Origin: Tridacna crocea
Lineage: Eukaryota; Mollusca; Bivalvia; Cardiida; Cardiidae
Assembly: GCA_943736015.1 (NCBI GenBank)
Contig: OX031069.1
Span: 39,590,728-39,654,727, forward strand
Reading direction: 5' to 3'
Length of the DNA: 64,000 nt
In this document: one piece after another, positions 25,701-60,662 of the stretch
How positions within the stretch are numbered: the first letter of the stretch is position 1
How the letters are laid out: each line of letters starts with the position of its first letter
Program-made: the position numbers and the translations under genes
The notes under the pieces: model-generated
The model's database searches: none
Told to the model about the DNA's origin: nothing
What the model saw: the letters and a program-made list of their open reading frames with translations, nothing else

Positions 25701-28700
25701 AAAGAAAGAAAAGAACCACACATTTAATTAAACCTTGTTTTTAGCTCACCCAGCGCAACGTGGTAATGGTAATCGCCGTAGACTTTGCCATCCCCTACTG
25801 ACGTCGTAATTACTAACCGACATCATCATAAAATACCGACGACGTTATTCATTAAGCTCCTGAGGTAGTTATTCATTACCGCAGTTGTCATTTACTTCCA
25901 AAGCTGTCCTTCATTACAGAAGTCTTCATTTATTACCGAAGTCGCCATTCAATACCGAACTCGTCCGATGATCAATTACAAAAGTCGTTAACTATAAACG
26001 AAATCGTCATTTATTACCAAAGGTATACTTCATTGCTGACGTCTCCGTTTGTTTTCGGCATTGTCATTTGTTTAATTGTAGCCATTGTTCAGCATCGGAT
26101 TTATGAATGGCGCTCAAGCACTACGGGTTAAATATAAACCCGTTATGCATTATACCAGGCAAGTCATAAAACAGACTGAATCACGAGGTAGAGCATTTGT
26201 TTGTCCTCGTGATTTATTTCCTGTGCCACATAATTCACAGCCGTGGTAAATTCAAAGATAAACCACGATAGAAGAAGATAATTTCATAATTAATCACCCT
26301 TTACTGTGATTATTGAAATTATATGCCTGCGTTGAAATGGTGCCAGGTAAAAAAGTTCAGATATCGTAGCACAAGCTTCGGTATGGCTTTTGACGTATTA
26401 CTCCTATTTAATGTCAACATTTCCTTCATTTAGATGGAAAGGTTTAAATCAGGAAAAGGTGGTATATAACGTCAACCAGTCGCTCTTTGCTGTTTTTATT
26501 TGAAGTATAATTATGTCTGCGTTGAAAAGGCGCTAGGTTGAGGTAAAGTTATCTATCATACCACAAGCTTTGGAGCATTTCTATAAGGCTTTTAACTCAT
26601 ATTTTCGGCTACGATCGTGTCTGTATTAGCTTTTTTTAAAAAAATATACTCTGCCGAAGGAGAGAAGATTGTACTTTAACCACAAGTATTGTAAAAAAAA
26701 ACCATATATTAGGAGCTGACATATATCCGCAATTTTTATTCCATTGTGTAAAGAACTTACTATTTTCGTCCAATATATAGAATACACTGACATTTTGGCT
26801 TTTAATCTTATCATATTATCTATGATTTAACTATATTAGTGGTGCAATTCGATACGAGCTGTCTGTTTGTATCTATAGCGAAAAGACAAGTGAGCGGTGA
26901 AGAATCTTTGTGGCCATCTTGTAGTTTCTCTTGAATATCATGTTACACACTTATCTCGTAAACGTGGTTTGGGGAAAGCTAGGATGAGAAAAAGCACGTG
27001 TCTGTTTTCTAATTCTAGGCTTACTCCATGAAATTCTGTTCAATGGTCGGGTAAATAAACGTCATTTGTTGTAATTTTCATAATAAATACGAGTACATGT
27101 GTAGTTTACCTATTTGACTATCTTGGCGCGCTAGTCGTATTTGATCTTTTTAATACACGTTTAAATCATACAGTAAATATGGAGGTTACATCCGATAATT
27201 CGACTTGAACCTTGAAGTTTTACAAAATTCGAAAAACAAGCTCTTCTATTCTTGGATTTTAGTTCCATCTTGATAGTTACTTCGGTTCATTTTCTTTGTA
27301 ATACATAAATTTCGTGTGGTGTCAAGAGATGATAACACGGCTGTGATACAGGTCTTGTTTCTATCAGACTATTATCGTAAAGTTATGCAAAGTGGTTTAT
27401 GCATTTACATTTACTTCATCTAATTTTTTAAAACTTTACCAAAAAACAATATTTTAGACCTGGCCAAATTTTAAAGTATTTTAGGCTCGCCATTAATGCA
27501 GTTGTTAATTTTATCATTAATGTTAATTTCTTCTTCGTCATAGTAATCGTGCCATATGCACTTTTCAAATATCATTTTATGTGGCAAATGATGAATATCA
27601 AATTATCAAATCATATTTTTATATAACGCTTTAATGAAATTTGAGATTACAAAATAGTCAGGTACTCAAACCTTAAGAAGTTTCCATAGATAACGATTCC
27701 TTTTTACATTATAATTTAGTGGTTTAATTTCTTGTTAGTTTCATTTTTCATGATAATTCTATCGTTTAAGACAGTATTTTATGTGGCTGATACTGGATTT
27801 CAAAGTAACCTATGCTTGTAAATCATATTTTATGGAAAATTGAAATTTTGTCAAGGTCGGTACAAAATTAAGAAGCATACATGTGAAGAGATTTCATTTT
27901 GAATGTAATTGCTGATGAGGGGCAAATTTTCTAATTAATGTCACTTTGCATGTTTGCAATAGTATTTTATGTACCATTATCTCAGTTTATCACTTTTACG
28001 CTAGTTTGTCTTAACCCATCACCACACAATCCCTACTTTTGACGCCCCTGAGAAAGAAGCCTTTTGAAAACACTGTGGGAAAAGGAGAAAATGCTGGTAA
28101 CCAGCATTTTCTCCTTTTCCCACAGTGTTTTCTACCCTTTCCAGAACATTTTTTTTTATTTTTCAGTCACCTTTATTTTGTTGTCTGCAAATGTTTTCAA
28201 GTTGGACCAGTCTGAAATTTTCTTGTGTGGTAATGAGTTAAGAACTTAAGGAACAACACAGTGTTTGCTATTGCTCACTTTCTATCTGGCGTTGGTCCAT
28301 CCAATAGACGTGTTATTGTAATGCAATAAAGTTATCATTTGTAGCCTTGTTCAAATCCAAAGCACTTGCAGACCACAATTTTATTGTTGCTCAAATGGTG
28401 CAATTCTTCTTAAAAATTAGAAAACATTTTGGGAAAAGGAGAAAGTGCTAGAAAAGGAGAAAGTGTTGCTTATTGGCTTTTTCTACTTCCCCAACAGTGT
28501 TTTCAAAAGCCTTCTTTCGCAGGGTCGTTAAAAGTCGGCCTTGTGAAGTAAAGGATCAGATAACAATATGTACTGAAGTTTTATCAAATTTAGCTTAAAT
28601 GAATTAAAAGCGTTCAACTGTAATCTTACTTAGTAATTTACCGAGTTTACCTATTTTGTTATCTTTTGGTGGTACTCCTACAACAGTGATTTAGGGTAAA

Positions 28701-31700
28701 AGTTAAAAATTTACTTTTGTGTGTGTTTTTCTTTCAAGTTTGTTGAAGGGGGCGGTTAACAAAGTCTAGCGTTCTTATCGCGTAAACAAGAAAAGATGGA
28801 CAGACGGAAATATAGACCTTAAGTGCGATATAAGCTTTGGCCTTATAAACTGATGCTACCTAAGAAAGTTTTACTTTAGAAGTAATCGTTTTAGTTCTAT
28901 TGGCAGAAAGCTAACATGGCTCGTGTCATTGTATGGTTTTTGTCGTCTGTCCGTCCGTCTTTCCATCTTTTCTTGTTTACGCGATAAAGTATGCAATTGT
29001 CATCAGATTTTCATGAAACTTGCACAATTTGTTTATCTAGTCTGCAATTCTCATCAGATTTTCATGAAACTTGCACAATTTGTTTATCTAATCAATAGCT
29101 TTAACGCTGTATATTTTGAAAAGAGAAATCTAACAAATTCAATGGAAAATGTAGCCATTTAAAGTTGAACATTTCCATGTCTTGTTTAGGCAATTAAGTC
29201 CACAGTTTTGATTCAATTCTTTTGAAACTTTCAAAGAGTGTTTGGATCAGTAAGGGATTGAACTCTATCAGAAGTGGAGAAAATCCAGTAATCTGTTCAA
29301 GAAAAGCACCCATTAGATGACTTAGTGTTGTTTACCCATCAAAGTCCAAATTGTTTTCAAACATCTCTTTGAAATTTGGTGGAATTGCAGAATACGAAGT
29401 GCACTGAAACCATATCTTTGATTGGATTCCAACCAATTATTTTCAGAAATTGCATTTCGTTTTCTTTTTCCACTGTTTATTTAATTCACTATGGTTAAGC
29501 TGTCTTAGTTGGTTCAAGCCAAGTTGTAAGAACGTTATCCCCCTTTTTCATGTATTTTTTTGTCTTTCTGGCCTTACGGCACTCGTTATTTTCACATACT
29601 TTTCCCTTTTTCGGCAAATATTTTCCCATATTAACCACAAGCTGATGAAATAAACTCTATTTACTAGTAACGTGTCTATCGTTGTTAGTTTTGAATAAAA
29701 GAGTAAATGTCTGTAAATCCTAGAGTTTTCCTTCTCTCTTTTAGTCAAGTATTGGAAAAGACGATTTTTGTTTACCTCACCTGACATGTTACTGCCGTAC
29801 GCGACATATCTCTATTTTATATAAAATGACGTCAATTTAACCATCCCTCCGTTGTAAATGCATTTATACAGCCGAGTCCAAGTCTGATGGTATGATTTAA
29901 ATTTTTGCATGATAAGTTTTAACTATTCTGCGTCAGGTCAGTAGCTCTCAGATGAGCTATTCAGGCTATCTTCGACATCGAACAATGGTATCTTACTGAA
30001 ATAAAAGGAAGGCAAGCCATATTTTCTGTATGAATCAAGTTTGAAAAAAAAAAAACAATGTTTTTGTTTATTTTTATTGAGTAAATACTGCAGAAAGTCG
30101 CAAAATTACACAAAACCACACACACATAGACACAGAGGGAAAACATGCTGCTTTATAACATTATTTGAGGCATGTAAAGGCAAAAGGGATCTCAGTGTAT
30201 CGCCATGATAATTGCATTACACCAAACAAGTCATTGCATAATTATGGGTCCATAAAATCTTTTATGTCAAACACCTACAGAATTCTTAAGTTGACTGATC
30301 CTTTGACATGCAAAATATTTATAGATTGTATTTTTTCTCTACCCGTGCGTCAGATTCTACATGTACCTTTGTGCGAGTGTTGTCCCAGAAGTCTTCAGAC
30401 TTTTCCCGTAACTCGACTATTTGTTTATATTTCAATACCAAAATTTATCGACATATTATTGGATGTACAGCTGATACTTACCATTTTATCAATATAGGGT
30501 GATCGCGTAGTATGTTGGCCCTGCTTGGAAGGTTTTTTTAACAGGGAATTTATATTAATGAAACTTTTAAAAATCATCTTGTTTATAATTATACAGCCGA
30601 GAACTGTACCTTTTTAGTGTGTTTTTCCATCTTGTGGACCTCCACCAGGATTCAAGTAATTATAGCTCTTTTTGAAAAAAAGAGGGCCTCTCTCTGAGGA
30701 TGACAACTTTCACATGAGCCTTGTAGGGAAAAAAATGAAAAACTTGTTCGAAACCATTTGGTTGACACTTGCTTGGTACGTATAGTTTGTATTTGTAAGA
30801 TAGACTAGAGATACAGGGCCATCACGGCTCTCTTGTTAAACATAATTAAATGTAATGGAAAAGTTATTTGTTGATAGGAAGTTTTTGTCTCCTCGACATT
30901 TCTATCCATATCATTCAGTAAAGGCATCTTTCTTTAGGTAATTCACCTGATACGTTGATAAACACACATAATTCCCTTGATAGCTGGTGTAATGGTTTCA
31001 TCTTTGACAACAGAGCTGCATCAAATGTATTGCTTACATGAGCCATCAAGATATTTTTTACAATATCAATTTTCATCTAAGCTCTAGATTAACTGATAAA
31101 TTTGAATTTGTGTGTAAACGGCTACTTTATGCAGGTCTATTTGAATAAGATTAACTCAACTAATGTTAAATTGTTTGCAAGATTTTTCAATGAAGGCGTC
31201 GATGGTATCAGTTATATAGATTTATGGATATACTATTGGATCAGATACGGTGTAGTTATAGGAAGTAATAGAATCGTCTGGCTGTGGGTCACGAATTTTG
31301 ATCGCCTTCGTCTTCCTTATTTCAACATTGGCTTCCAGCGCTTGCTTTGCTACACAGTAGATGGTAGAAATTGCTTCGTCTGGTGGTAGAATCAGGAGTG
31401 TGACTTTGCTAACATTTTTTCTGGTGTTAAACTTGTGTTTGTAGCGTGCGGAACTACTTTCTATCAAGTCTTGACCGTATTCGTAGTCAGCTCTAAGTTC
31501 CAATTTAGGTGTTGGGTGTCCAGTAGCTTTACAGGTCAGTATTGTCTTCTCCTTTGTGTTCTTTATGAGCCTGGTTTTTTCTTCATCAATTTCCACCTCC
31601 TGAAGCGGTAGGTATGTTGTCTTGTATTGCACAATTTGATTTCCATTCGATGCTTGGCATATATAATCTCCTTCCGGTTTACTGGGCTTGTTTGGTTCGA

Positions 31701-34700
31701 ACTGCAGGACGCTGAGTTTATAAATGCCGCGTTCATACTCGTAATCTATTTCTGTTTCTACAAGAGAGCCATCTTTTTCTCTTTTAAGCAAGGTTATTGC
31801 TGGCAACGGGACCCCAAAGGCTAAACATGTATGACTCAAATAGGGTCCTTGAACATACATCCTCTCACGTGGTTTGTAGAGTCCAAAAGTATGATGGGGC
31901 ATGACATCGCCGATATCTTGATTTATGAGCTTGAACTCGTTACCGTAGGAAAAGTCCCGTATATAACCACTGGCGGTCTGAGGTAGCCATATCTGTATTA
32001 TACCACCATATACAGCGAAGTGTTCAGTAAGGCTTACCACGACCTCATTATCACTGCCATTCTTTACAGTAAGTGTCAGATTAGAGTCATAATCCTTTGC
32101 CCAAAACTCAATGAATTCTGGTGGACTCGTTTTCGCGTTTATTAATGAAATAGCGACGTTTGGGCGATATCGTTTTTCATTCATTCCTTCAATAACATTT
32201 TCACTTACTGTAATTGTTGTATTAAACCCGTTGCTTTTCAATTCATCCGCCGGTACTGTGATTCTTGGTATCATTTGCAGAATTTTCTTGTCAGGTTCAT
32301 GAAACATTTGCGTTCCTTTTTCACTCAAAGCTGATATGTTTAGACTGATCTGTGCAGAATACGCTGTGGACGATATTATCAAAGAAGCCCATGAAATCGA
32401 GTCAAGATCGCGAACAGTAGTCTTCGTTGTAAACTTAATGCGATCATTCTCGAGAAGTTCTTTGGTGACTTGCCCGTTGTCTCTTGTAGTATGTCCATGG
32501 TACTGTCTGGACAGAAACCATTCTGCAATATAACCAGCATCGGCAATGTATGTTATAGACAAATCAATTTCTTTATTTAGGAGACCTCCTGACTCAAAGC
32601 TCACTAATTTGAGTGTTCGTTTTTTTATTTCGTTCCACTCCTCGTTGTCATCATCCACATCAGCGGCGATAGATTTCTCATCGCTACCATCTATTTGCGG
32701 TATTTCAATGCTCGGGTTCATTGGTTTTTCGCCGATTTTCTCTTTTCCTTTGATTTCCTGCACGACGCTGCATAAATTGCTAAGACCATCGACCAATGCA
32801 TCAAATTGAGACAGTTTCTTTTCAAATGCGTTGAGACGATTTTCTATTTCATCCAACGATGCGTCTCCATTGACTTTGACAATCTGTAAGCACAAGTAAC
32901 AAAGACGTCCAATATTATTAGGTTATTTAACATGCTTGGGCACGAAACTGAATTGAATTGGATTCGCACACTGCAGAACCAGTCTATTTTTTGGTCGAGG
33001 CAAAATACAGATTGGTGCTGCAGTGTACGAATCCACTTGAACGATTAAGTTTTGTACCCAAGCATGTTAAATGACCTCTTTATTTCACACTTCCGCCTTG
33101 ACTTTAAAGTATAGGACAAGTATAGAGCCATTTCAATTTAGATAAAAAAAATTAAAACATAACAAAAGAAGGTTTCTGAGTTGTTTTTTTTTTAACAACG
33201 GACTTCGGTAGACTACTCTTCCGGTTTAATATCGCTATGCTGGAACTTAGCCTCGTTTTGAAAAACCCATATTGGACTCTTGCTTCGTTCTGTAAAATTT
33301 ATATTGGACTCATGCCTCGGTCCGAAAAATCAGTATTAGACTTTACAGCATCTAATATAAGCTAAGATATTATGTACTCAAGTGGTACCATTAAAGAGAT
33401 TCATTGTTAAGTTGTAGATGTGAAATAAATAGCGTTTATTTCATCAGCTTGCGGTTAATATGAGGAAATATTTGCCGAAAAAGGGAAAGGTATGCGAAAT
33501 AACGAGTGCCGTAAGGCACGGGTTATTTTCGCGGACCTTTCCCTTTTGAGGCAAATATTTCCTCATATTAACCACAAGCTGTTGAAATAAATTATATATT
33601 TCCTCTGATTATTTTGTCAACGAATGCCACTATTAAAACTAGTGATCTCAAATATAACAAAAAAGGTAGTTCCAGATTTTCGGCATGAGGAAAGTATTCA
33701 CTGCGACGGGGAAATAATTCCCCCAGCTTAAATTACGTGATTTCTTTACCCGTAACATTTCTAAAAAAAGACACATGAAATATAGTACAGAAACTTATTC
33801 TAAGAGAATATGGGAGCCGATTAAATTCGATTAATTTCTTCGTCGGATGTATTTGATGTATCTAGGCTAATCAAAAGTACATGTCGTCCTTGCCCCATGT
33901 TAATGTCTAGCATTCAGCTAGATACATTGCGTCTGTCTGTATTTCGGTTAATAATTCATGAGGCGTGCTTCGCCATGAAACGGCCTTCATTGCATCTGCA
34001 AAAAGCATTGGCCCAGTTGGGTGGCTCGGTGGTTGGTTTGGTTGACGTATTTTACTCGTGAGCCGGTGTAAGAAAATCTGGATACACATGCGTAGGTGCA
34101 CCGGCCGCCATGATATGATCTAGATTAGCTGTTCAAAAGGCGTTTGACTAATATACAAACAAAAATTGTTGACCTCATCTGACCTGTGCAGTCTGCATAA
34201 CCTTATCAGCGGCGAACCATTTTGCTATTAATAAATTTTTATTCTCTGTGTCCGTGGATCATTCTACCGCATGATCAGTTGGTTGTTACACTAGCTGGAC
34301 TTAATGGATCCATAGTTATAATGATGACTTGCAACACGCGAGAAGGGGGCATTCAAACATTTTTGCGTAAGATGCCGTCTCGGATCAGCCTGCTTAGTCC
34401 GCACAGGTCATGGAGATCAAATAAACCCCATTTTTCAAGATCAACGTACGATATATTTTCGGCAAAATTGCTAGTAATCCTCACCCTGTAGTATAAATTA
34501 AACGAAACCTTCAAGCTAATAGAAAAAACAAAAATGATTCTACTTTCAATTCTTTTTTTTTTGAGAAAAATATCTCCGCATATCGGATAATGTTGATCAA
34601 ACATCAGACGGCACGTTCTGCTCTTGGTCTTGATCTACACTGTCTGCAAAAGGTCGGTGAGTCGCGCTTACCAGCTTAACCCTTTCCTAAACGACAAACT

Positions 34701-37700
34701 TTTGGACTAGACCAAACTGAAAGCATTTGCAAACGAAAATTAAACTCTTGCTGAAAAGATGATTTCTGTCTATGATAGGGAAGAAAACATTGTGGGAAAA
34801 GGAGAAAATGCTGGTTACCAGCATTTTCTCCTTTTCCCACATTGTTTTCAAAAAGGCTACTATTCAAGACCCGTAAAAACCAGGGATTGTTTGGGAAAGG
34901 GTTAAGGGTTAAAAACAAATGGTGTGGATAATTAGAAATACAGAGATGATTCCATTCAGGACCTTGGTCCGTTGAGCCCAGGTAGAGCAGTGCGTAGAGT
35001 GCAGAACTTGGAACAGAGAGTCTCTAGAACTCGAATCCCGAGCTCGGCCAATATTTGTCACATGATTCATGACAGTTATTGCGACAAGGTTAAATTCTCT
35101 CTCACCGTCGATGATTGTTTCGCCAATGGTCAGGTGAGAAATCATCTTCGCAAGCCAAGGCTGACGATTCACTACGCTAGTCTACCTTTGGCGGATCGAG
35201 CTTGATTTTTACATTCCCCCGATACGCTTTTTCATTGGATGCAGCCAGCTTTATCTGCAACGAATGAAATCGCTCGTAGCATTTCATCTTTGATAAAAAT
35301 AGAACAAGATCGCTACCTTTCGAATAGAAGGTAAACATGGAAATCCACGTGGATATCTGCTTATCGCTTCATGTATATTCGTAAGCGGTTTGCAAAACGA
35401 TATTTCATTGGCTTTTAGAAATATGATGTAAAGGGGGGTAATAACCAGCATCCAATGGAGGGCGCATCGCAGGAATCTCGAAATCGGGCTCAATTAGCCA
35501 AGGTAAGATACGCGTAGTGATCGTTACCTTTGCTCGCGAAGAAGGTGAGGAATCAGTGGCCGTAGATGAACATTGTGTGAATTACTTCGATAGAAACTCT
35601 AGTGAAGCATGACTTGGTGCATGGATAGGTACATTGGCCATCACCAGCCGATATAGCTCAGTAGGTAGAGTGTAGGGGTCATGAACAAAATGTTTCAGGT
35701 CACTACAGGTTGTGGGTGCGAATCCCTGGCTGGTCAACTAAAATTATTAATAGTCTTTCGGATGAGACATTAAACCGAGGTCCCGTGTGACGGTGCTATA
35801 CGCCGAGCACGTTAAAGAACTAGGCGAAGCTCTCAGTAGTTTCGACCTGTATCCTTGCACTATCCCCCGTAACAACTAACCGTCTTCTGGAGGCCTCGCT
35901 CAGATGGGCAACCGGTATCGACGATAAATAAAAGGAAATAACCAACCAACCAACATTGGCCATCGAATGTGGGTTCAACAAAAGTTCTGGCGTAGGATGT
36001 GCTATTCACACTCGTCCCCCCAACTTCAACACAAAAGAAGAAGGAAATATTTGAAATATACCGATTAAGTTTTTACTGTTTACTTGTTAAACTTATGTTA
36101 ATTATTTAGCAGGTTAAAGATTAAATCAAAAGAAATGACGACCGTTATCCGTTGACGAATATATACAAAACATTTTAATTAAAAAAAACTTACCGAGATG
36201 GAAACCCCGAATAGGAGACACAAAATAGTACCAAGTTCCATCGTAGATTTTTTGAAATAAATAAAATCAAAGTTGCTGAGAGGTTCGCTTCTAGGTTTGG
36301 AACAATTAAGATAAACAGTTCCGATGTTTAGAGAAGAAACTGTTGTAGCTCGCCTGGGTAGCAACGTGTTAACCCTTTCCCAAACAAGCCCTGGTTTTTA
36401 CATGTCTGCAGTAAAACTCTTTTGAAAACATTGTGGGAAAAGGAGAAATTGCTCGTAACAGAGTTACAGTGTTTTCTACCCTATTTGAGAACTTTCTGCC
36501 ATTTTCTCAAAATCAAAAATTGTCGTCTGCAAACTCTTTCGGCTTGGAAGAGTCCAAAATTTGGGAAAGGGTTAAAGGGACTCATTGATGACATCGTCCT
36601 TCAGCTGTGTCATTAAAACTTTTCGATGAAATACCGTGACAAATTGACAGTTCAAACCATCATTTATTTACAAATATTAGACCCGTGCTCTGACCAAAGG
36701 AGGTTTACTGGATCTCCGTGATTTATTAAACCGAGAAAGTCATGATATTATATAGATCTATAAAATCCAGTATGTCTAATAGCTGACTAAATCATGACGC
36801 AGAATGGTCCTTGGATATGCAGAAAATTCACAGAGTAACAAAAATTTTCGACTCATGTCAGCCTGCAAGGACTGCGTAAGCTGACATGAGTCGATACTTT
36901 TTGCTGATATACTTAACTCTTTACCACACAATCCCGACTTTTAAAGACCCTGAGAAAGAAGCTTTTGGAAAACACTGTGGGAAAAGGAGAAAATGCTGGT
37001 AACCAGCATTTTCTCCTTTTCCCACAATGTTTTCTACCCTTTCCAAATCAAATTTCAATTTTAGATTCACATTTATTTTCTCATCTGCAAATGCTTTCAG
37101 TTTGGACTGGTCCAAAATTTTGTTGTTTGGTCAAGAGTTAAGTTACTGGACCCGTAATAGAAAACAGCCATTTACACTATAATAAAAATGCTATGATTAA
37201 AAATGGGTATCATTGTACTACTTTCACCGAGCCACTTTTTCCTTTTTGTCCTTCTTAGAATTATCATTCATAAATCTAAAAGCACTATATTCTCATTACA
37301 AAGAGAGAAAATAATTACCTCCCTTTTTCAAGAAACTAACAAAAGAATCAATAAATAATTTCAAGATAGACATCAAAAGAATTTCTTGTTGGTTAAAAAT
37401 GTCCAAAAGTATTATATCTGTGTAAGTCTATATTTATCAACAATCAAGAAATTTTATGCCATGATGCTCTAGAAGTATTAGAATAAGCCTCTAGGATCAT
37501 TTCTCTACGTAGAATAATGACCCATGGGTCATTTTATGGAGAAGATTATTTCTCTGCATTACACTGGCAATATCCTAAAGCGAGCGATAGAGGTACATCA
37601 TGACCCTCCTGTCGTTTTGGGTCGAGTACGGGGTTAAACAGACTTCCTGTAAACATGATAACGACGAGGTAAGCTTGCTAAGTGCGATCCACTGGTGTTT

Positions 37701-38168: not shown

Positions 38169-41100
38169 AGAATCAAAGTAACGCGTAATTCTCATTTAGT
38201 TGTTCCTTTTATTTTTTTGTTCTTACTTTTCGTATTGCCTTTCAATGACGAGCACAAGTTTTGTATAAGTGGGTAAGTTGATAAAAGCTCTTTTACAAAT
38301 TAAGTCTTATCTTTCAGATACAAGGTTGGTCATGCATGTTTATCTAAAGATACAAGACAAGCTGCGAAGCGCGAGGGGTTACTGACATTTTGCGGACAGT
38401 GTAGATCAAGATCAGACTGCACAGAATGTGCAGTCTGATCTTTGATCTACACTATCCGATAAGGTGATGTTTTCTTCCCAATATATTAAATTGAAATATC
38501 AGTATTCGCTTTTTTACTATCTGCTTGAAATGTTTATTTCAATTATCTAGCAGGACAGGGTTTAAATTAATTCGGAGTCTGTTATTAGGGCCAAACCCCG
38601 ACTGATCTTATCAGATAGGACCAAAACATCTTCTTTCTCTTCACTGATGTGATAAACGTAATTGTAGGGTGGTGTAAACTAACCTTACCAATTTAATTCT
38701 TGATTTACATTACATTTTTTTTTCTGCCAGCAAACGGAACTTGCTGACCTAACTTTTGATCAAAACTGTTTACTTTTTGAAGAAGTCCAGACATATATAA
38801 AAAATACCAAACGTTTTAAGTAATTTACACCGACTGTAACAGTGATAATATTACCAGACATCTAACAGAGAGCACCATCATATTTCCTTATATCTTTTCC
38901 CCTTATAAATATCCCTTTTTTCCGTTCCTTTCGTTTTCATTTTTGTTTTACATTTATTAGAAAGGTATTTACTGTATTTGCCATTGTTGTAGAAATAATT
39001 ATTATACATTCTTGTAGGGGAAGGACCGATTCTAAGTTGTTAGAACTTGTGGTCCAACCCCATTTCATTGTATATGAAATAAAATATGTTTAAACTAACG
39101 GAACTTGGACAGATTTCACTGTTACAAACTATCAGATTCATTGTAATAATCATAATTATACCCCCGCAAAACGAATTCTTTCGGGGGTATACTGGAATCA
39201 GCCTGTCTGTCCGTGTGTCCGTCCGTGTCCGTTTGTCTACAAAATACTAGCAATTGCCCGTTTCTGTCAAAGCGGTGGCGGGGGTATTAAGTCACATTCA
39301 GTATTGGCTCTTGAATTGTTTAAGTTTTGCTGCTTTTGCGCTTTCAACCTTGTAAATAATGTAAATACACGTTTTAGTTACAAATTAATACATGTATCTA
39401 TATAGCTTTAACCCTTTACCAGAAGACAGATTTTACAACTAGTCCAAATTGAAAGCAGTTGCAGACGACAAAATAAACGCAACTGAAAGATTGAAATTTG
39501 CTTTGGAAAGGATATAGAAAACATTGTGGGGAAAGGAAAAAATGCTGGTTATCAGCATTTTCTCCTTCTCCTACGATGCTTGAAAAGGTTTCTTTATACT
39601 TGAAAAGGGGGTCAATTGTTATCTCCCTTTGTAACGAGAATGCAGATGTTTTAGATATATAAATGATAGTTCAAAGAAGGAAAAAAAGGAAGTAAAATGG
39701 CTCGGTTAAACAGCAGTACAATAATACAATAATACTAATATTAAATCATAGCAAATTTTGTTTGATAATATCAAAGTGGAAATAACTGTTTCCCATTTGG
39801 GTCTACTACCTTAGAATGCAAAATGCAAAGGAATGATACACCACTCAGTTGTTTTCAAGTATTCAAACAAGAATAAATCCTAACTAGCGAGAATATTTAA
39901 AACGCAGTACACCGTATGGTTTCTCCTGTATTTTTATTTCTTTTCTTCTTTTTTTCAGGTTGCAAGCCGACAAGTATTTGTATGTGTCGGAATTTTGTAC
40001 ATCATATTCGGACTGTTTGGTAAAATATCCGCCATTTTCATCACCATTCCATATCCGGTGCTAGGGGGCGCTATTGTGGTTCTATTCGGGATCTTTGTCG
40101 GGGTAGTGATTTCAAATTTAGAGGTGAGCTAGTTTCATAATTTAAAGTGTTTTTTTTTTTAATCTTTGTTAGATGTCTTAATTCCAGGCTCAAAGGCAAG
40201 CTTAGCTTGATTAATTTCTAATGAGGCATAATTTGTGAAAAGAAGGCTTAATGCATTTGAAAAAAAGTATCGACCTCTATCAGCCTGCGCATTCCGCGCA
40301 GGCTGATAGAGGTCGAAACTTTTTTTATTTTTGGAAAATTTTGTTTATGCCCGAGGATCGTTCCACGTCCGGACTGAGCCGGTTTTTAGACAAGCCGGTT
40401 TTTAGACAAGCCGGTTTTTATGGATCCATCATTGTATGGTGACTTGCTTGGCGTAATGTTTCACGCAGTTGTATGTATTATATCCCCTTTTACCCGTGCA
40501 TAATTCATCTTTTTTCACTCTTACAACTTGGTTGCTTTTCTAAATGTGATTGAATTTGCTAGTGTGATAGTTTTATATTTCACTACCGGTTTAACCTTAT
40601 TACAACAGTTTGTTATTTCACAATGCGTTATTGTCTGAAATATCGCTCCGGTGGCAAAACATTGTTTTTGGTTGTTTTTGAAGTAGCGCAAATTTATGGA
40701 ATAGAAGCCTTTGCCTACTAGAAAGGTCCTGGCAAACTGGGCCTTATTTCATGAAAAAATCCATGTCTCTTGTTTTATTTAATTCCATCAGCAATCTTGG
40801 AGTTTTACTCGAGGTGAGTACGTTCGCTGTCTGAGCGTGTCATGTTCTTCGAAGATTCGACCTGTCTGCTATGACGCATCACCCATCCCATATGGTTTGC
40901 GATTTGATTGGTCAAAATGTTACACTGTAAAATCAATCCGCCATTCATGAAAACAGATTTACTACAATCCACACCATCGAATGACTTATTTTGTTTGTCG
41001 TTTTCGAATAAGATGTCAATAATTGCAAAATGTTGTCGTTGAAAGTTGTGAGTACCTGATAAAAGGAAAATTATGTTGTAATAACTTTTCATGGTGCTTG

Positions 41101-44100
41101 TATTTACTTCTTGCTGCGTAAGAAAATTTTGACATCGCGCGAGACCTCCGGTCTCGCGTGATGTCAAATTTTCTCACGCAGCTCAAATTGAATACAAACA
41201 CCAGGAAAATTACCACAATATATACTGAGTACATTTAAAAACGCACGTCTTGGTTTTCAGTTAATATCTTTGAGAGTAATAACTTCATGACAGCAAACAT
41301 GTCATATTTTAGGCTTAGCACCCAAAATTTGGTAAAAATCAAATAAATAATTCATCTCAAATCAAAAGCTTGTATTTGTGAGGTCAAAAAATGAAATCCG
41401 CAAAGTTAATAGTGTTACCACAGTAAACATCAATTGGAAATTGACCTCGATGATGCATAGACTGCACCTTGGCTGCTATTCTCTTCTGCGGAATATTGTT
41501 CCACTCTTGAATCAGTGCATAATGGAAGTTTGATCTTATTTTGAGGTTGATGAGGTCACATAAGAATCGTATGATGTTTTTTCTGCTCACACTCATTACT
41601 AACTTTGTGAATTTCAATTTTTGACCACAAAAGCTCAGGCTTTTGATTTGAGATGAATTATTCATTTGATTTTTATGAAAGTTTGGGCACTGAGTTTTTG
41701 AATATGGACATTTGACACTGTAAATTTTCGATGTTGTGGATTCATTTTTGTCAGAGATATTAATTCTAAACCAAGTAGTGCGTTTTTAAATGTAGTCAGT
41801 ATAATATTCTGTATTTCTCAGGCTGCTGGAACCAAGTATAAGGAAAATTATAAGTACATATTTATTTAACGATGTTTTTTATATATGTTTACAGGTGACG
41901 GCTATGTCATCTCCCAGAAATATAGCAATCCTTGGACTCGCTACGTTTATTGGTTTGTTAGTCCCGACTTGGGTCAGTAAAGTAAAGACACCAGTAAACA
42001 CAGGTATGTAACATTTACTGTAAACAGTACACTTTTTCGAAATGCATTACATAATTGGTTTGCAACACGCGAAAAAGGGGCATTCGGATATTTGCGTAAA
42101 GTGTCGTCTCGGATCAGCCTGTGCAGTCCGCACAGGCTAATCCGAGACGGCGCTTTCCGTTTTTTTAGTAACTTTCTTTTTTGTGCAAGTCTATTGTAGC
42201 ACAAAATCTAATGTAGTCGTAAAATGCCGTCTGGGATCAGCCTGCGCGGACTGCGCAGGCTGATCCGAGACGACACTTTACGCAAATGTCCGAATGCCCT
42301 TTTTCGCGTGTTGCAAGCCAATTATAATTTTCAGATGAATCGTTAGATCACATACATTTGAGCGGCCCCTTGGTAAATGGAGGTAAGTTGTATCATCGTG
42401 ATGCATTGTACTAAGCAATCTGTCGAAAATTTCTGCCGAAAATGATTCACAACCAAATTATAAAGAAGCTTCTTTTGAAATAATTTTGTCTGTGATGTAC
42501 AGAACAACAAAGAAGAGAATAATTATGTTTGGTGTAAATTTCTGCAAATGTAGACCGATACTATAATATATCATGAACAATAATTTTTGTGATTCAGTTA
42601 TGTGATAACATTTATTTGATATTTGCCGGCTTTTGGTGTAAATCATTGTTTAAAACAAGCCAAAACAAGACATTTCTTTAAACAACGGATAGACGGTATA
42701 AATTTGTCCGCAAATGGGGTGATGCCCTTAGTATAAACATGTGTAGATTTTTGACCAATCACAAAGTTCTGTTTATTCATATTTTACAAGTACAAAAATT
42801 TAGGTCAAAAGCCAACACCTTCGGCTGCACCGAAAATCGTTGTTAAGCTCGCCATAGATTCGCTTGATAACGTTTTTTTTCTAGACTGGTTTAATACAAT
42901 CTTATCAAATGTTAACTCGTGTCAGATCCGATATGTTTTAATTTGAATAAAAATATTGCGGAAATCTGGTCGTCGTAGCTATTTAAAAAAGGAGGAGTGG
43001 TATGGAAATAAGTTGTTTTTTTTTCCGTACTTACTTTTTGAATTCGGTCTCAAGCACATTTTCACAACATATATTTCGTAGAAATGCTGTTTTCTTTTTT
43101 GATCCAGGTATGAAAAGTTTTGATTCCATTGCCGCGATGTTACTTGGCAACCCAAACCTTGTAGGCACTATATTAGCGTGTTTTCTGGACAATACCGTTC
43201 CAGGTCAGTGTCAGTCTTAAACCTTTACCAAACTGTCCCATGTTTAACCGACCCTAGAGAAGAAGGCTTTTGAAAACATTGTGGGAAAAGGAGAAAATGC
43301 TGGTGAACCAGCATTTTCTCATTTTCCCACTATGTTTTCTTCCCACACTTAGGCAACTTCACTTATCTAAATAAATCTAATTTTTTATCTTAAAATGTTT
43401 TTATTATAATTATGTAATTCCACCCTCGCCTTGCTCTGTAAACACCATTTTAAGATTAGATCTACACATTAACAAGCTTCTCGCTGTGAGACCTGTAAGT
43501 TAGAAGAGTGTCGTAAGATCGTTAAGAAGTGTATTATGATATAAAAATCTTCGAGATAGATTTCAGGAGACAAAGGCCGTATTCCTTTCATCTGTTCTGA
43601 CACAATGTTCTGTGTTCTGGAATACTGTTCTGGAGTGTGCGACAGAAATATTTTAGAACACAATACACTGTTCCGGAAGTATGTTCCGAATGGAGCATGT
43701 TCGGAACATTATTCTAAACCATATCGAAATGAAAGTACATTGGCATGATGGCTGTTGCAAGAGCTACTGTCTTAGCTGTGTTAGTTGAGGACATGATTAG
43801 CTGCCGACTTGGAGTAGAGACGTGTCTACTATGCCCCTATTTATGGCATTCATATCGTGAAATAGGACAATTGCAAATTTTGCCATGAAGAATTGTCCGT
43901 CTTTGAGCCATCTTGTATCACCTAGCAACCGTCCAACAGGTGCGCTGCACCTCGATTGGATTTGAACAGTCAGAACATGTTCTGAAGAACACGGCACAGT
44001 GTTCCGAAATACTCCGTTGACCTAGAAAATGTTCCGAGTAGCGAAAGGAATACGCCCAAAATTTAACCTTATTGTGTTTCCCGGCCTTTACAGGTACAAA

Positions 44101-45237: not shown

Positions 45238-45469
45238 TTAACCCAGTACCACACAAAACCCTACTTTTGACGACCCTGAGATAGAAGCCTCTAGAAAACA
45301 TTGTGGGAAAAGGAGAAAATGCTGGTAACCAGCATTTTCTCCTTTTCCCACAATGTTATCTACCCTACTCAAAACAAATTTCAAATTTTCAGTCTTTTTT
45401 ATTTTGCCGTCTGCAAGTACTTTCAATTTGGACCAGTCTAAAATTTTGTCGTTTGGTATAATGAGTTAA
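45238..45469. repeat. MITE family D, complete copy
   Basis: TTAACCCAGTACCACACAAA and GGTATAATGAGTTAA ends, palindrome at 45295-45357. Confidence 0.9.
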
Positions 45470-45909: not shown

Positions 45910-46000
45910 TATCATTCTATTTTCTGTGTGCCAGGGGACCAGCCTACCTTATAATTCAGTCGGTTGGTACACAAAGTGGCTTTTGTAGATCCTTAATCCT

Positions 46001-46221
46001 TTAACCCATAAGGCATTTCTATGGTATCTCTAATTGACCCTAAATAACAGCAAGGATGAAGCCGTCTCCTATGTGTATATGACACCTTTTGATAGCATAG
46101 AAAACATTGTGGCAAAAAGCGAAATTGCTCGTGACGAGCAATTTCACCTTTTGCCACAATGTTTTCCAAAGGTTCCTACAAGCAATGCGTAGAAATGAGT
46201 ATCTATGGAGTAAAGGGTTAA
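46001..46221. repeat. MITE family E, copy 2
   Basis: TTAACCCATAAGGCATTTCT at the left, ATGGAGTAAAGGGTTAA at the right, palindrome at 46101-46166. Orientation opposite to copies 1, 3 and 4. Confidence 0.9.
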
Positions 46222-47704: not shown

Positions 47705-47842
47705 TAGGGAAAATTTTGAAAACATTGTGTGAAAAGGTGAAAATGCTGGTTACCAGCATTTTCTCCTTTTCCCACAATGTTTTCAAAAAGCTTCCTCCTG
47801 AGGGTCGTTTGAAACCGGGATTCTTTGGTAAAGGTTTTAAGT
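47705..47842. repeat. MITE family D, shortened copy
   Basis: GTGTGAAAAGGTGAAAATGC arm, loop TGGTTACCA, complement, then GGTCGTTTGAAACCGGGATT. Left body missing. Confidence 0.78.
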
Positions 47843-50199: not shown

Positions 50200-50428
50200 T
50201 TAACCCTTCACTCCATAGATACTCATTTCTACACAATGCTAGTAGGGGCCTTTGGAAAACATTGTGGCAAAAGGTGAAATTGCTCGCGACGAGCAATTTC
50301 ACCTTTTGTCACAATGTTTTCTATGCTATCAAAAGGTGTCATTTAAACAGAAGAAACGGTTTCATCCTTGCTGTTATTTAGGATCAATTATAGATGCCAT
50401 AGAAATGCCTTATGGAGTAAAGGGTTAA
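50200..50428. repeat. MITE family E, copy 3
   Basis: TTAACCCTTCACTCCATAGA and TATGGAGTAAAGGGTTAA ends. Left arm GTGGCAAAAGG faces CCTTTTGTCAC, a single mismatched pair in the stem. Confidence 0.9.
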
Positions 50429-50614: not shown

Positions 50615-51475
50615 GGGTTTTTTTTTTACGTTGAAAGACCGAAATTTATTTCATCGTGTGAACATCATCGGTCTAGTGGCGCAGCAACGAGTGAAAATAT
50701 TACCGATGGTATTAAAGAGATAAAATATATTTCGATATTTCACCGAAAAATACAAATAATCTATTTATTTGATGCTTTTAGCCCTTTTAGGGGAAGCTTA
50801 ATCAATATCCAGTACAGTTCTTTTCGGTTATTCCTCCTAGCAACGCATGACAATATCACGTCATGCTCGAGAACTACGTCATATTTCCATCTGGTTGTGA
50901 TTTATCTTGGTTAATTGTGCGCGGGAACAACTATTTCTGCCTTCAATTGAAGAGTAAGAATATAAAAAACGGTGAAAAATATCTTACCTATATTTATAGA
51001 TAACCTACCGGAAAGCATGAAATAATACACATCATTTCGTGCTTTCCAGTAGGATATCGAGAAATAGCAGTGAAAATATTTTTCGATCTTACATTGGTAC
51101 CACCAGTGAAAATACCGATTTTACGTTCTTGTTGCCTAGGTAAATTGCGCATGCCTCACAACCAGATGGGAAATATGACGTCATATACCTTACATTTCTC
51201 GCACTTGACGTAATATTGTAATGCGTTGCTATGCGGGAGGGGTGCACCACGGGGAATCACGGAAAAGAACTGTATTGGATTTTGATATGGGTCCACCTAG
51301 AAAGGGTTTAAAGCATGAAATGAATAGAATATTTTTTTCCCGGTGAAAGATCTAAATTTATTTCATCTCGTGAACACCATAGGTAATATTTTCACTCGTG
51401 ACTGCGCCCCTCGTGAAAATATTACCGATGGTGTCCACTCGATGAAATAAATTTAGATCTTTCACCGAAAAAAAC
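50615..51475. mobile_element. 860-bp palindromic element G
   Basis: Two outer hairpins (50620-50755 and 51331-51475, each AATTTATTTCATC...TCGGTAATATTTTCAC type) flank two inverted body arms (about 50757-51003 and 51025-51320, sharing CAGTACAGTTCTTTTC and its complement, and TCTGGTTGTGA). A small central hairpin (CTACCGGAAAGCATGAAATA) lies at 51004-51060. A half copy is at 62028-62480. Confidence 0.82.
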
Positions 51476-51726: not shown

Positions 51727-52700
51727 CGAGGTGCCTTCAATAAATTTCCGGACTTTTTTCGTATGGCTACTTTTTTCATCGGACACATATTAAACTCTAG
51801 TCTCCTTCAACGTACTCTCCTTCGGCTGCAATGCACTCGTTGTACCATTCCACCAACTTCTGGAATGTCACCTGCAAGTCCTCCGGTGTGAACGTGTCAA
51901 CGACCTTCATCACTGCACATTTCATCTCCTCAATTGTCTCGAAACGACTGCCTCTGAGGTTTTTCTTGAGCGTAGGGAACAACCAACAGTCACAGGGAGC
52001 AAAGTCTGGACTATATCGAGGATGAGAAACTGTCTTGATGCCCATCTCGGTCAAATAGTTGGAAACAGGGATGGAGTTGTGGACTGGTGCACTGTCCTGG
52101 TGGAAATGCCACCGATCAGATGTGAAGAGTGCTGGCCTCTTTCGACGGAATCTCTTCCTGAACTCCTTTAAAACCTCAACATGATATTCTTTGTTGACTG
52201 TTTGTAGATCATACCCTTGCTGTCAAAAAAAAAAAGAACATCATAATTTTCTAGGTCTTACCAACTCTGGTGTTCTAACTCCCCTACTCATTCCACACCT
52301 CTCATCGACCCTCACAGACCTCTGCCTTCCCTAAATCTGTTGTGCTACTCAAAATCCGATGATCTGCCCATCCTGGACGGGCTGTAAGCAGTCTAAAGCA
52401 TATCATATGTCTCTTATGGCATTTTTTCCAAGTTTAACACAAAACTTTACTGTGTATCGTTCTTCCAAAGCGTCCTCTCACATGGACTACATTTTCGAAA
52501 AACGTCAGCTTTGACGATCAGCGTTTAGTACGGTGTGTTCAAAGTCCTGCTGCAGCTGTCCCTTTCCTCCCGAAATTATAAATATGGATCTGTCATATCA
52601 TTAGATGTATATTAATAACGTACTACCGGATTTCAAGAGCCAACAATAATTTTAAAAGCCTGTACAAAAAAAAGTCCGGAAATTTGTTGAAGGCACCTTG
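51727..52700 (-). mobile_element. Tc1/mariner-type element with intact TIRs and TA target duplication
   Basis: Inverted ends CGAGGTGCCTTCAATAAATT (left) and CAAGGTGCCTTCAACAAATT (right, reverse complement) extend about 30 bp and are flanked by TA at 51725-51726 and 52701-52702. The 974-bp length is short of a full mariner (about 1.3 kb), so internal sequence has been lost. It lies between the SLC23 and MRH genes. Confidence 0.92.
51797..52540 (-). pseudogene. Decayed mariner transposase
   Basis: On the minus strand the C-terminal part is open from about 52220 to 51797: HQDSAPVHNS, then HPRYSPDFAPCD, giving the D34D spacing of mariner catalytic aspartates, and EWYNECIAAEGEYVEGD at the end. 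Farther upstream a helix-turn-helix remnant RYTVKFCVKLGKNA (about 52475-52440) is followed by stops. The first catalytic Asp region is missing, so the copy cannot be active. Confidence 0.88.
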
Positions 52701-54035: not shown

Positions 54036-57000
54036 GTAAGTATTTAGCTTTTTATACTTCCGCAAAACGAATGTTTTCAGGGGTAAACTGATGTAAGCCT
54101 GTCTGTCCGTGTGTCCGTCCGTGTGTCCGTCTGTGTACAAAATACTAGTAATTTTGTGTCGCAAACTCCTCCTACAGTTTTCCTTCAATTATATTGAATC
54201 TTTGCACAAATATTGACCATACATTGTCAAAGAGTTACATGACGCAATTTTCAAGTGTCAACTCTTCCTGGTTGAGGAATTATCTCCCCTTGAACTTGAC
54301 ACTTTTTTTCTGTCAAAGCGCTTGCCGAGCTATTAAGTCACATTCAGTGACAGCTCTAGTTTTGCTTTAAATATGCAAAATTTTAGACATGTACAAACTG
54401 AAAAGAAAAAAAAAACTGAAGATGTCAAATTAGATTTGTCTCATATGAAGGTAGCTAATTTCATTCTTCCCCAACATGTTTTCTACACGGTAGAAACCAA
54501 TGTGGGGTTAGGTAAAAAATGCTGTAAGTTTGACAGAGCGAGTATAGTCATCAATATAACCACCATCCTCAACATCATCATCATCATCATCACCATCATC
54601 AGTAAGTATTATTATCAGATTAATTCTTATCCTGCTGAAAAGTAAAGACTTAAAATTCAATAGTTAAAACACATATACTTTAAAAAAAAAAATCCTTATT
54701 GGACAGTGAATATCCAAGTTCAGACTTCACGTTCTGTGCTGTCTGAGCTTGATCTACACTATCTGCTCACGGCCAGGGAGTCGCGCTTCGCAGCGTCAGA
54801 GTTATAAAATCATTATATACTACTCAAAATTTGCTCGGGATCACCCTATCAGATTTACCCTAGATCTATATGTGACGTGTATTATGTTTAGTTTTACAGT
54901 ATGTTGTATTACCACACTGATCAATTAAATCACCAGAGGAAATGGGCCTTTCAACCTTTACCAAACAAAGTCGAATGTTAAAGACACTAAGAAAAGAAGC
55001 CTTTGAAAAACATTGTTGGAAAAGGAGAAAATGCTGGATACCAGCATTTTCTCCTTTTCCCACAATGTTTTCTACCCCATGACAGACAGTATATTGTACG
55101 TTGCTTTTGGTTTTTAGTCAGCAAATGTTTTTAACTTTGACGAATCTAGAATTTTATTGTGTGGTAAAGAGTTAACACAAAACTGTTATAACATATATAC
55201 CCGTACTGAAATATGTAAGTGAGGGCTATCAAAGTGTGAGTAGTAATATGTACAGGTATTTAGGCTTTATATGTATTTAGGTGGGCGAACGTGTCCAACA
55301 AAGATGACGAACTATTTTCATGGAATCCATGTTTCAACTTTAACTACACTTACAGAAATGATTCAGATTGCGTGGAAGTAGCGGTAAGAGTAGACTCTCT
55401 CACTCTCTTTCTCTCTCTCTCTGTTTCTCTCTCTCTCTCTCTCTCTCTCCATTCGTCTGTGTATCTGTTCCAGTAAAGATAATAGTGCATACCGCTCTAT
55501 ATGACACCAAAAAAATGATAAAAGTGCTTTTTTCAAGAACTTTTCATCTAGACCTCGAAAAAAGTCAGCTTTGTTTCAAGGTCAGCGAAACGGTTAACTC
55601 TTTACTAAAGGACAAAGTCTTCGATATGTCGAAACTGAAGCATTTGCAGATGATAAATTTTACTCAAGAACTGAAACTAGACTTTTGGTTGAGTCTAAAA
55701 CATTGTGGGAAAAGGAGAAAATGCTGGTAACCAGCATTTTCTATTTTTCACACAGTGCTTTAACCCTTTACTCCATAGATACTCATTTCTACGCATTGCT
55801 TGTAGGAGCCTTTGGAAAACATTGTGGCAAAAGGTGAAATTGCTCATGACGAGCAATTTCACCTTTTGCCACAATATTTTCTATGGTATCAAAAGGTGTC
55901 ATATACACATAAGAAACAGCTTCATCTTTGCTGTTATTTAGGGTCAATTAGAGATACCATAGAAATGCCTTATGGGATAAAGGGTTAAAAAGGCGTTTTC
56001 CTTAGGATCATTATAACAAGGGATTGTTTGGTAAAGGGTCAATGTATGTTTGATTGGCAAAGTGAACACACAACACGATAGATCTCGCTTGTCAAATGTT
56101 TGGAGTAGGTCTAACAGTAAACCTTTTCAGAATCATTTATAAAATCTTACATAGATCTTTGTTGTCATGAGGTTTGTGGTCTTATAGCTGTGGCTCCGCA
56201 TGAGTGGCATCTTTGTAAGCCAAGGGTGACGATCCACTACGCTATTCTATCCTTGGCGGATTTCGACATTCCCTCGACATTCCCCCAGACGCATTTTCAT
56301 TGGTTGCAGCTAGCTCTAACTGTACGAATCAAATCACTCGTAGTATTTCATCTTTGAATGAAAATAGAACAAGGTCGCGACCTTTCGGATAGAAACGGAA
56401 GGCAAACATGAATACCTCCGTGGATGTGTGCAGAATCTGTAATGATTTATTACCAAAAATAAAACAGACGAACAATATTTACAGAAAGTGTCAACTGTGT
56501 GACCAGTCAATTATCAGAGGTTTTAGGCTATATATCAGCACCAGACCATGGAATGTTGACGTACGTTTGTGGTCATTGCTTCATGTTGAATGATTGTATT
56601 CGTAAGCGATTTGTAAAACGATATTTCACTGTCTATAAGAAATACGGTGTAAAGGGAGATAATAAGCAGCATTCAATAGGGGGCGTATCGTAAGAATCTC
56701 GAAATCGGGCTCAATCTGCCAAGGTAAGATCCACGTAATGATCGCAACCTTGGCTCGCGAAGATGCATGAGCGGCGGCACTATATTTTTGTTCGCTTTTT
56801 GAAAAATGCCCGTCGAGGTAGCCATATTGTTTACTGTATGGAGTGATTCAGTTTTTATTTTAAATATACGTATAGAAAAAAATTGGAAATGCCTCAAATT
56901 TGCACCAGTCTAAAAATTGTTTTGGTATGGCTGAGAGTTATATATTGTGTTTGTTAGGTATGTATGATCAGAAAAGGTATTCCGAAGGAGCTTATTTATG

Positions 57001-60242: not shown

Positions 60243-60662
60243 TGAAGGGTAGAAAACATTGCGGGAAAAGGAGAAAATGCTGGTTACCAGCATTTTCTCC
60301 TTTTCCCACAATGTTTTCTAAAGGCTTCTTTCACAGGGGCGTCAGAAGTAGGGATTGTGTGGTAATGGGTTAAAGTTATCAGGAAACTGTAACACTAATA
60401 GCCATGGAAGGTTTTGCCTAACAAGACGATTGTAAAATTAGATTTTAAATGTTATTTATCAATATTACAGGAAATGACGTTCGCAAGTAAGCACGCATGC
60501 GCATACGCACCAACTATAGGTCCAACTGCCAAAGTTGTTCCAAAAGGATTGAATGGAGGTGAAATATTTGCTATTGTGTAAGTACGCTTTCTTGATTTTG
60601 TTGTAGTTATTATATCTTTTGCAACAAGTTAAAAACTTTTAAAAAAAAAGTAAAGGTTGGTA

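Follow-up and report, generated by a model that had tools for sequence, protein, structure and literature searches.

The palindromic MITE families D and E, found in a 64,000-nucleotide stretch of the Tridacna crocea genome (the window), are, together with a third group, F, sister subfamilies of one non-autonomous, piggyBac-like TTAA element, and the four base-pair swaps that distinguish the stems of D and E are fixed paired differences between source sequences. These stems have probably evolved by copying of one hairpin arm from the other through template switching, combined with a preference for well-paired copies as sources. According to this model, a base change would appear first on one arm. 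If a hairpin then formed during DNA synthesis, the polymerase could switch to the opposite arm as template, with two main consequences: i) the change would be erased or copied onto both arms and ii) where the switch spans the tip, the tip would be inverted. Well-paired copies near the conserved sequence would be favoured as sources, and this would explain why pairing holds in every fixed difference but fails for most variants of settled copies. For the same reason, something must act besides arm copying, either such a filter on sources or a coupling of copying to multiplication.

Comparison of the consensus sequences shows that D and E belong to one 229-bp, TTAA-flanked MITE with a shared layout from TTAA to TTAA: a 53-bp end, a 71-bp palindrome and a 105-bp end. 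The palindrome is a near-perfect hairpin of 35-bp arms with one unpaired centre base. The same part lengths (53/71/105) occur in the consensus of F and of the flank subfamilies D2 and D6, those of D6 and F having been assembled by eye. In the F copy L028:9066-9294 lengths of 53, 71 and 105 were measured directly, and the F copy in L038 has ends of 51 and 102 bases as cut there. A TTAA target-site duplication is present at both ends in D, D2, E and F consensus sequences or copies, some single copies being without one. The elements of this type identified in the window are the following.

45993 to 46221, minus strand: complete E-type element, 229 bp TTAA to TTAA, short 53-bp end on the right, TTAA at 45993-45996 and 46218-46221
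46098 to 46168, minus strand: E palindrome of this element, 35-bp arms around a single centre base, with mispairs at 21 and 23 in this copy
45238 to 45469, plus strand: D-type element, TTAACCC at 45238 and GAGTTAA ending at 45469 (by eye), with the D palindrome cited in the initial annotation
45292 to 45362, plus strand: D palindrome
36369 to 36575, plus strand: F-type element, intermediate, with G, A, T, C at 16, 23, 28, 33; right arm mostly deleted
9913 to 10141, plus strand: E-type element, 229 bp, A at position 15 on both arms
50200 to 50428, plus strand: E-type element, 229 bp, A at position 15 on the long-side arm only
55760 to 55988, plus strand: E-type element, 229 bp
2680 to 2750, minus strand: D palindrome
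8148 to 8218, plus strand: D palindrome
10681 to 10751, minus strand: D palindrome
20022 to 20092, plus strand: D palindrome
28064 to 28134, plus strand: D palindrome, position 10 changed from T:A to C:G on both arms
34781 to 34851, minus strand: D palindrome, D6 flank subfamily
36966 to 37036, plus strand: D palindrome, position-10 change on one arm only
39515 to 39585, minus strand: D palindrome, worn
43270 to 43342, plus strand: D palindrome with one extra centre base
47716 to 47786, minus strand: D palindrome, arms in different states at position 23 (one D, one E)
55004 to 55074, plus strand: D palindrome, centre T instead of A
55694 to 55764, minus strand: D palindrome, adjoins an E element
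60250 to 60320, minus strand: D palindrome

The swaps were defined on an alignment of the 14 D and four E palindromes of the window in which both arms are present. From position 9 the consensus arm reads ATTGTGG-G-AAAAGG-A-GAAA-A-TGCT-G-GT in D and ATTGTGG-C-AAAAGG-T-GAAA-T-TGCT-C-GT in E, so that, on both arms in register, G:C in D corresponds to C:G in E at position 16, A:T to T:A at 23 and at 28, and G:C to C:G at 33. The matched difference that the initial annotation had described at these sites thus holds between the families, at the level of their consensus: the E pair is intact at 16, 23, 28 and 33 in 49, 46, 51 and 50 of 51 E copies (39 best hits and 12 sampled copies, not a random set), and the D pair in 70, 91, 100 and 92 of 105 sampled D copies, counted after setting aside six copies of one tandem array (L024). 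In the E copy from which the difference had been read, three of the four swaps are paired, while position 23 has C opposite A and a second mismatch lies at position 21; the element that carries it starts not at 46001 but at 45993. Covariation points in the same direction, with changes on both sides in 14 of 33 pairs and a score of 0.117 against 0.049 ± 0.003 in shuffled alignments (reached in 0 of 500) for 82 palindromes, 79 of them distinct, under a shuffle control that leaves relatedness in. Under the arm mutation spectrum, four swaps that are all complementary have a probability of about 0.002; this regularity was noticed after the fact, and neither template switching nor a source filter explains it. 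The change at position 10, also paired, differs from the four swaps in being a transition. One-arm G>A at position 16, itself a D/E site, occurs more often than any other D variant (22/105 copies, 11 per side) and is found on both arms in only two copies.

Subfamily F is intermediate: with both arms paired, it shares its states at 16 and 23 with D and those at 28 and 33 with E. Five two-armed copies were collected (L016 2239, minus; L018 966, plus; L021 729, minus; L028 9066, plus; L038 8988, plus), all paired at 16, 23, 28 and 33 and also at 10, where they have C:G; those in L016 and L038 carry a deletion of one or two bases in one arm. Besides the window copy, three more (L027, L037, L078) have an F-like end without an intact palindrome. 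The exact F core, taken as positions 20-35 of both arms and therefore excluding position 16, has 9,593 matches in the genome, and the reversed-pattern control has none. The ends of the window copy resemble D more than E at the short side (38/52 against 32/52 identical) and, by alignment score, at the long side (17 for D, -11 for E), where gapped identities are similar (65/96 and 60/90). Since F has two of the four swaps, these arose in at least two steps, and the simplest history places two paired changes between F and D and two more between the D/F group and E, together with the paired changes at position 10.

Outside the palindrome, ungapped identity between D and E is 30/53 in the short end and 43/105 in the long end, compared with 61/71 in the palindrome including its end bases and centre. 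Inward of the TTAA the short ends agree at 26/49 positions versus 12.8 in shuffles, and by this sequence comparison D and E are related beyond the palindrome, but weakly. A chance resemblance of unrelated families is ruled out by the equal part lengths, the short-end identity and the covariation above shuffles. The short ends of D, D2, D6, F and E all start TTAACCC(T/A)TT, and the long ends start TTAACCC in E, F and D6 and TTAACTC in D and D2. CCC-type termini (CCCTT, CCCAT and similar) next to TTAA fit piggyBac (PMC10813416), and the TTAA at both ends and the unequal ends are further points of likeness to MITEs of this superfamily, as is the short, non-coding, high-copy nature of the 229-bp element; the difference is that here the central 71-bp palindrome is more conserved than the ends. 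The genome contains 118 matches to the piggyBac transposase (PF13843). Six of these loci were inspected. Similar TTAACCC ends flank L076 and L079 on either side and L078 on one side, sharing with D, E and F only the first 10-11 bases (by eye), and L074, L075 and L077 gave no clear end pair; no transposase partner with matching ends was found among these six.

Are changes transferred from one arm to the other? The sample consisted of the window and twenty 10-kb stretches (264 kb), with 125 two-armed palindromes (111 D, 12 E and 2 F). After removal of the six L024 copies and of copies with more than eight changes in an arm, 88 D copies carry 345 one-arm variants and 32 that are identical on both arms, 10 of the latter being the position-10 change. 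A null that preserves load, keeping the number of changes per arm and the position-by-base frequencies, predicts 13.4 ± 3.4 paired changes; without position 10 the figures are 22 observed and 10.9 ± 3.0 expected. (An earlier permutation that ignored unequal wear had given 47 versus 18 and is superseded.) The excess is also seen in the 60 young D copies, with at most five changes, where nine paired changes compare with 1.7 ± 1.3 expected (0 of 2000 simulations), though G>A at position 12 accounts for three of the nine, which may mark one small subfamily. L033:5050-5120 is unchanged in positions 3-35 apart from a paired G>T at 14, in L032:5900-5970 a paired A>T at position 9 is found in no other young copy of the sample, and L032:3640-3710 has two adjacent paired changes. 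Arm homogenisation beyond chance, one sign of template switching, thus emerged only with the larger sample: the 18 copies of the window alone give two paired changes versus about 0.8 expected, which is no signal.

Paired variants are nevertheless the minority in settled copies. In the 51 E copies there are 59 one-arm and two paired variants, and A at position 15 is confined to the long-side arm in 16 copies, present in both arms of one and never found on the short side only; among its carriers are the palindromes at 9966-10036 and 50253-50323 in the window and copies in L022, L026 and other loci. This one-arm mismatch sits in an E source that multiplied, which indicates that pairing is not strictly required and that the filter is not absolute. 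In-place arm conversion can be rejected as the main force in settled copies, where one-arm variants dominate; conversion within them is rare and alone cannot make all fixed differences paired. Changes arising separately on each arm, a pattern considered in the initial annotation, are accordingly the rule for most later variants, which lie on one arm, but not at the four swapped sites.

The second sign of template switching is inversion of the spacer, here a single base. In flank-oriented E copies the centre is G in 34 and C in 17 of 51, never A or T. Among D and D2 copies A is the usual centre (75), followed by T (7), G (2) and C (1). Seven of the ten D changes are therefore to the complement, compared with 20% among arm changes (p = 0.001), with weak flank scores for the orientation of two of the seven copies with centre T. 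All 17 E changes are to the complement and are possibly inherited: the mixture of G and C could be two old source forms. It shows all four combinations with 25 of 30 flank sites, as do 291 of 435 other site pairs, some of which involve indel-shifted columns. The asymmetric base at E position 2 keeps its side in 46 of 51 copies and the position-15 A is never on the short side alone, so any inversion would be confined to the inner stem. Altogether, both signs suggest template switching, arm homogenisation clearly and tip inversion suggestively. Inversions were also looked for in the unrelated family B: of its 37 palindromes, 12 could be oriented by A/T asymmetry, and two of them look inverted (window, near 16513 and 44433), nine do not and one is ambiguous. 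A third candidate, L040 4862, proposed from T/C asymmetry, fails on comparison of the outer bases by eye.

The stem is also constrained. In the D, E and F consensus, every stem position from 3 to 35 is paired. Between D and D6 the stem shows 0/66 differences versus 40/158 in the flanks (p = 2e-7, with the D6 consensus made by eye), and between D and E 8/66 versus 83/158. With CpG columns excluded, 50 E copies, mostly found with the whole element as query, have 1.7% changes in the stem versus 2.7% and 3.3% in the ends. The D copies show a larger contrast, but they were found via the palindrome, which favours it. A first comparison limited to four E copies had shown no slower stem (p = 0.49). 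Arm copying, we reason, does not by itself slow down paired change, so a stem more conserved than the ends implies selection of source copies on stem sequence as well. The initial annotation had concluded that the stem is copied or selected, through hairpin-templated repair, arm-to-arm conversion or a structured RNA. The general statement is supported: selection as a constraint on source copies by these contrasts, and copying by the paired excess in young copies and, more weakly, by the complementary tip changes. Its structured-RNA option found no positive support.

Several other histories could yield paired swaps. Ordinary point mutations, on one arm and then the other, retained by selection for a paired stem in amplifying copies and with no template switching, are the most serious competitor, possible though clearly less probable than arm copying. 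They would fit stems that are paired at 3-35 in all three consensus sequences and more conserved than flanks, and the one-arm variants common to many E copies show that mispaired intermediates exist. However, selection among sources is blind to changes private to single copies, and the paired changes of young copies that are private among the young copies of the sample (such as L033:5050-5120, position 14 G>T, and L032:5900-5970) together exceed chance; nor does this history predict the complement bias at the centre. We think it rather unlikely that inter-locus gene conversion moved whole palindromes between subfamilies and flipped the tip, as a palindrome pairs either way. The 291 of 435 flank-site pairs with all four combinations within E, and a D element with an E-like outer arm, are what such exchange would produce, but the D, E and F palindromes have remained distinct in spite of hundreds of thousands of D copies (an extrapolated number), and the side of the E position-2 base is kept in 46/51.

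The alternative of an imperfect ancestor, with same-base mismatches at the four sites, from which D copied the left arm, E the right arm and F a mosaic of both, strikes us as very doubtful. Three correction patterns would indeed account for all three sets of states, and D and E states do lie on opposite arms in 13 site instances (5, 4, 2 and 2 per site) in 12 sampled copies; such mixed instances fit single mutations as well or, in L028:3486-3556, recombination between D and E, no copy with all four ancestral mismatches exists among the 125 palindromes, and four same-base mismatches are no likelier than four complementary mutations. Least probable of all, and hardly credible to us, is that the hairpin works as a structured RNA, for instance a small-RNA precursor, with the swaps as compensations at the RNA level. 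A 35-bp near-perfect stem invites this explanation, and MITE-derived small RNAs are known in other organisms. Against it, the window has no Rfam match at gathering thresholds, the fixed swaps are all double transversions instead of steps along the G-C/G-U/A-U path, and the tip, usually constrained by RNA function, is far more variable than the stem (17/50 versus 1.7% in E). Arm copying by template switching with favoured sources remains our preferred explanation; template switching, source selection and inter-copy conversion can act together, and the confidences expressed here overlap. A further possibility, that the hairpin is copied as such during the element's own multiplication, each round of amplification passing through a foldback or hairpin-capped intermediate in which one arm is made from the other and the tip is flipped, is improbable in our judgement. 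If true, it would explain paired sources versus unpaired settled copies and also the conservation of the stem and of part lengths despite diverged ends.

It has long been asked how stems can change in sequence and still stay paired, and template switching has been proposed as the answer from events at single loci. In the short inverted repeats of yeast, template switching is known to homogenise the arms and to invert the spacer (PMC8604942): arms turn identical and short spacers flip repeatedly and reversibly, to which the arm homogenisation and the suggested tip inversion described here are comparable. That work deals with single loci across strains, whereas the present case involves many copies of a mobile palindrome, a one-base tip and a source-level filter. 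Template switching has also been proposed for paired changes in RNA stems; the model (PMC8794818) shares with ours paired substitutions without long-lived mispaired intermediates, as well as loop inversions, but concerns RNA genes under RNA-level selection, while ours is an apparently non-coding DNA element. Bacterial REP/REPIN elements (PMC3116915) are likewise abundant, short, palindromic mobile DNA, but they are bacterial and are not TTAA elements. Among the open-access papers listed in our literature searches, none deals with matched swaps, or with template switching, in the palindromes of MITEs. As general background, a likeness between REP/REPIN sequences and the present element may extend to the evolution of the stem.

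Intact palindromes occur at 5.3 per 10 kb in nineteen 10-kb loci, placed at round coordinates on five contigs (C1, C3-C6) and not at random, and extrapolation to the 1.05-Gb genome, uncorrected for the choice of places, gives about 560,000 (bootstrap 414,000-723,000). Scans of viral contigs for further copies found nothing, and 13 prokaryotic matches in the genome-contig scan were judged to be chance for 18 fixed bases and set aside. With a palindrome repeated perhaps half a million times, in several subfamilies and with asymmetric flanks that orient each copy, the question becomes one of counting, and a single genome could yield rates for one-arm mutation, for arm copying and for tip inversion. 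The usual pattern of MITEs is reversed here, with a conserved core, diverged ends and fixed lengths of 53, 71 and 105, which suggests that the hairpin serves the element.

Further observations concern single loci and other repeats. In L028:3486-3556 the short-side arm of a D element is E-like in its outer half (15, 16 and 23 changed) and the other arm is D, likely a recombinant. The array in L024 (G000:C1:25000001-25010000) consists of units of about 1.67 kb in tandem; six of them lie within 10 kb, and every one carries the same D-type arm. Other palindromes in the 264 kb (50, of which 22 belong to families A and B, AT-rich ones being skipped) include D variants and, among those listed, no other TTAA relative. 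An unrelated palindromic family with the core GTCAGCCTGCGCA occurs in the window at 16513-16581, 19048-19112, 40260-40326, 60939-61005, 62990-63054 and other places; in 14 copies compared, the block beside the core varies between copies yet mostly matches between arms, and the 5-base loop at 16513 is inverted relative to that at 19048. A long palindromic family with arms of 67-76 bp and TTTTTCGGTGAAAGAT-like starts lies at 62030-62166 and 51334-51474 in the window and at L038:2915-3069. As for coding sequence, an open frame of 566 residues with Ig domains (Ig_3, I-set) occupies 31222-32922 on the minus strand of the window, and a frame at 23880-25086 resembles it by eye, with no Pfam match in the scanned part, 23880-24728. 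The Ig-domain frame, together with mariner-like and piggyBac transposase sequences, gives the genome an animal character. Finally, the minus strand at 51797-52222 holds a transposase fragment, which we take to be mariner-like, with a DDE_3 match of 26.5 bits, just under the Pfam cut-off of 28.6.
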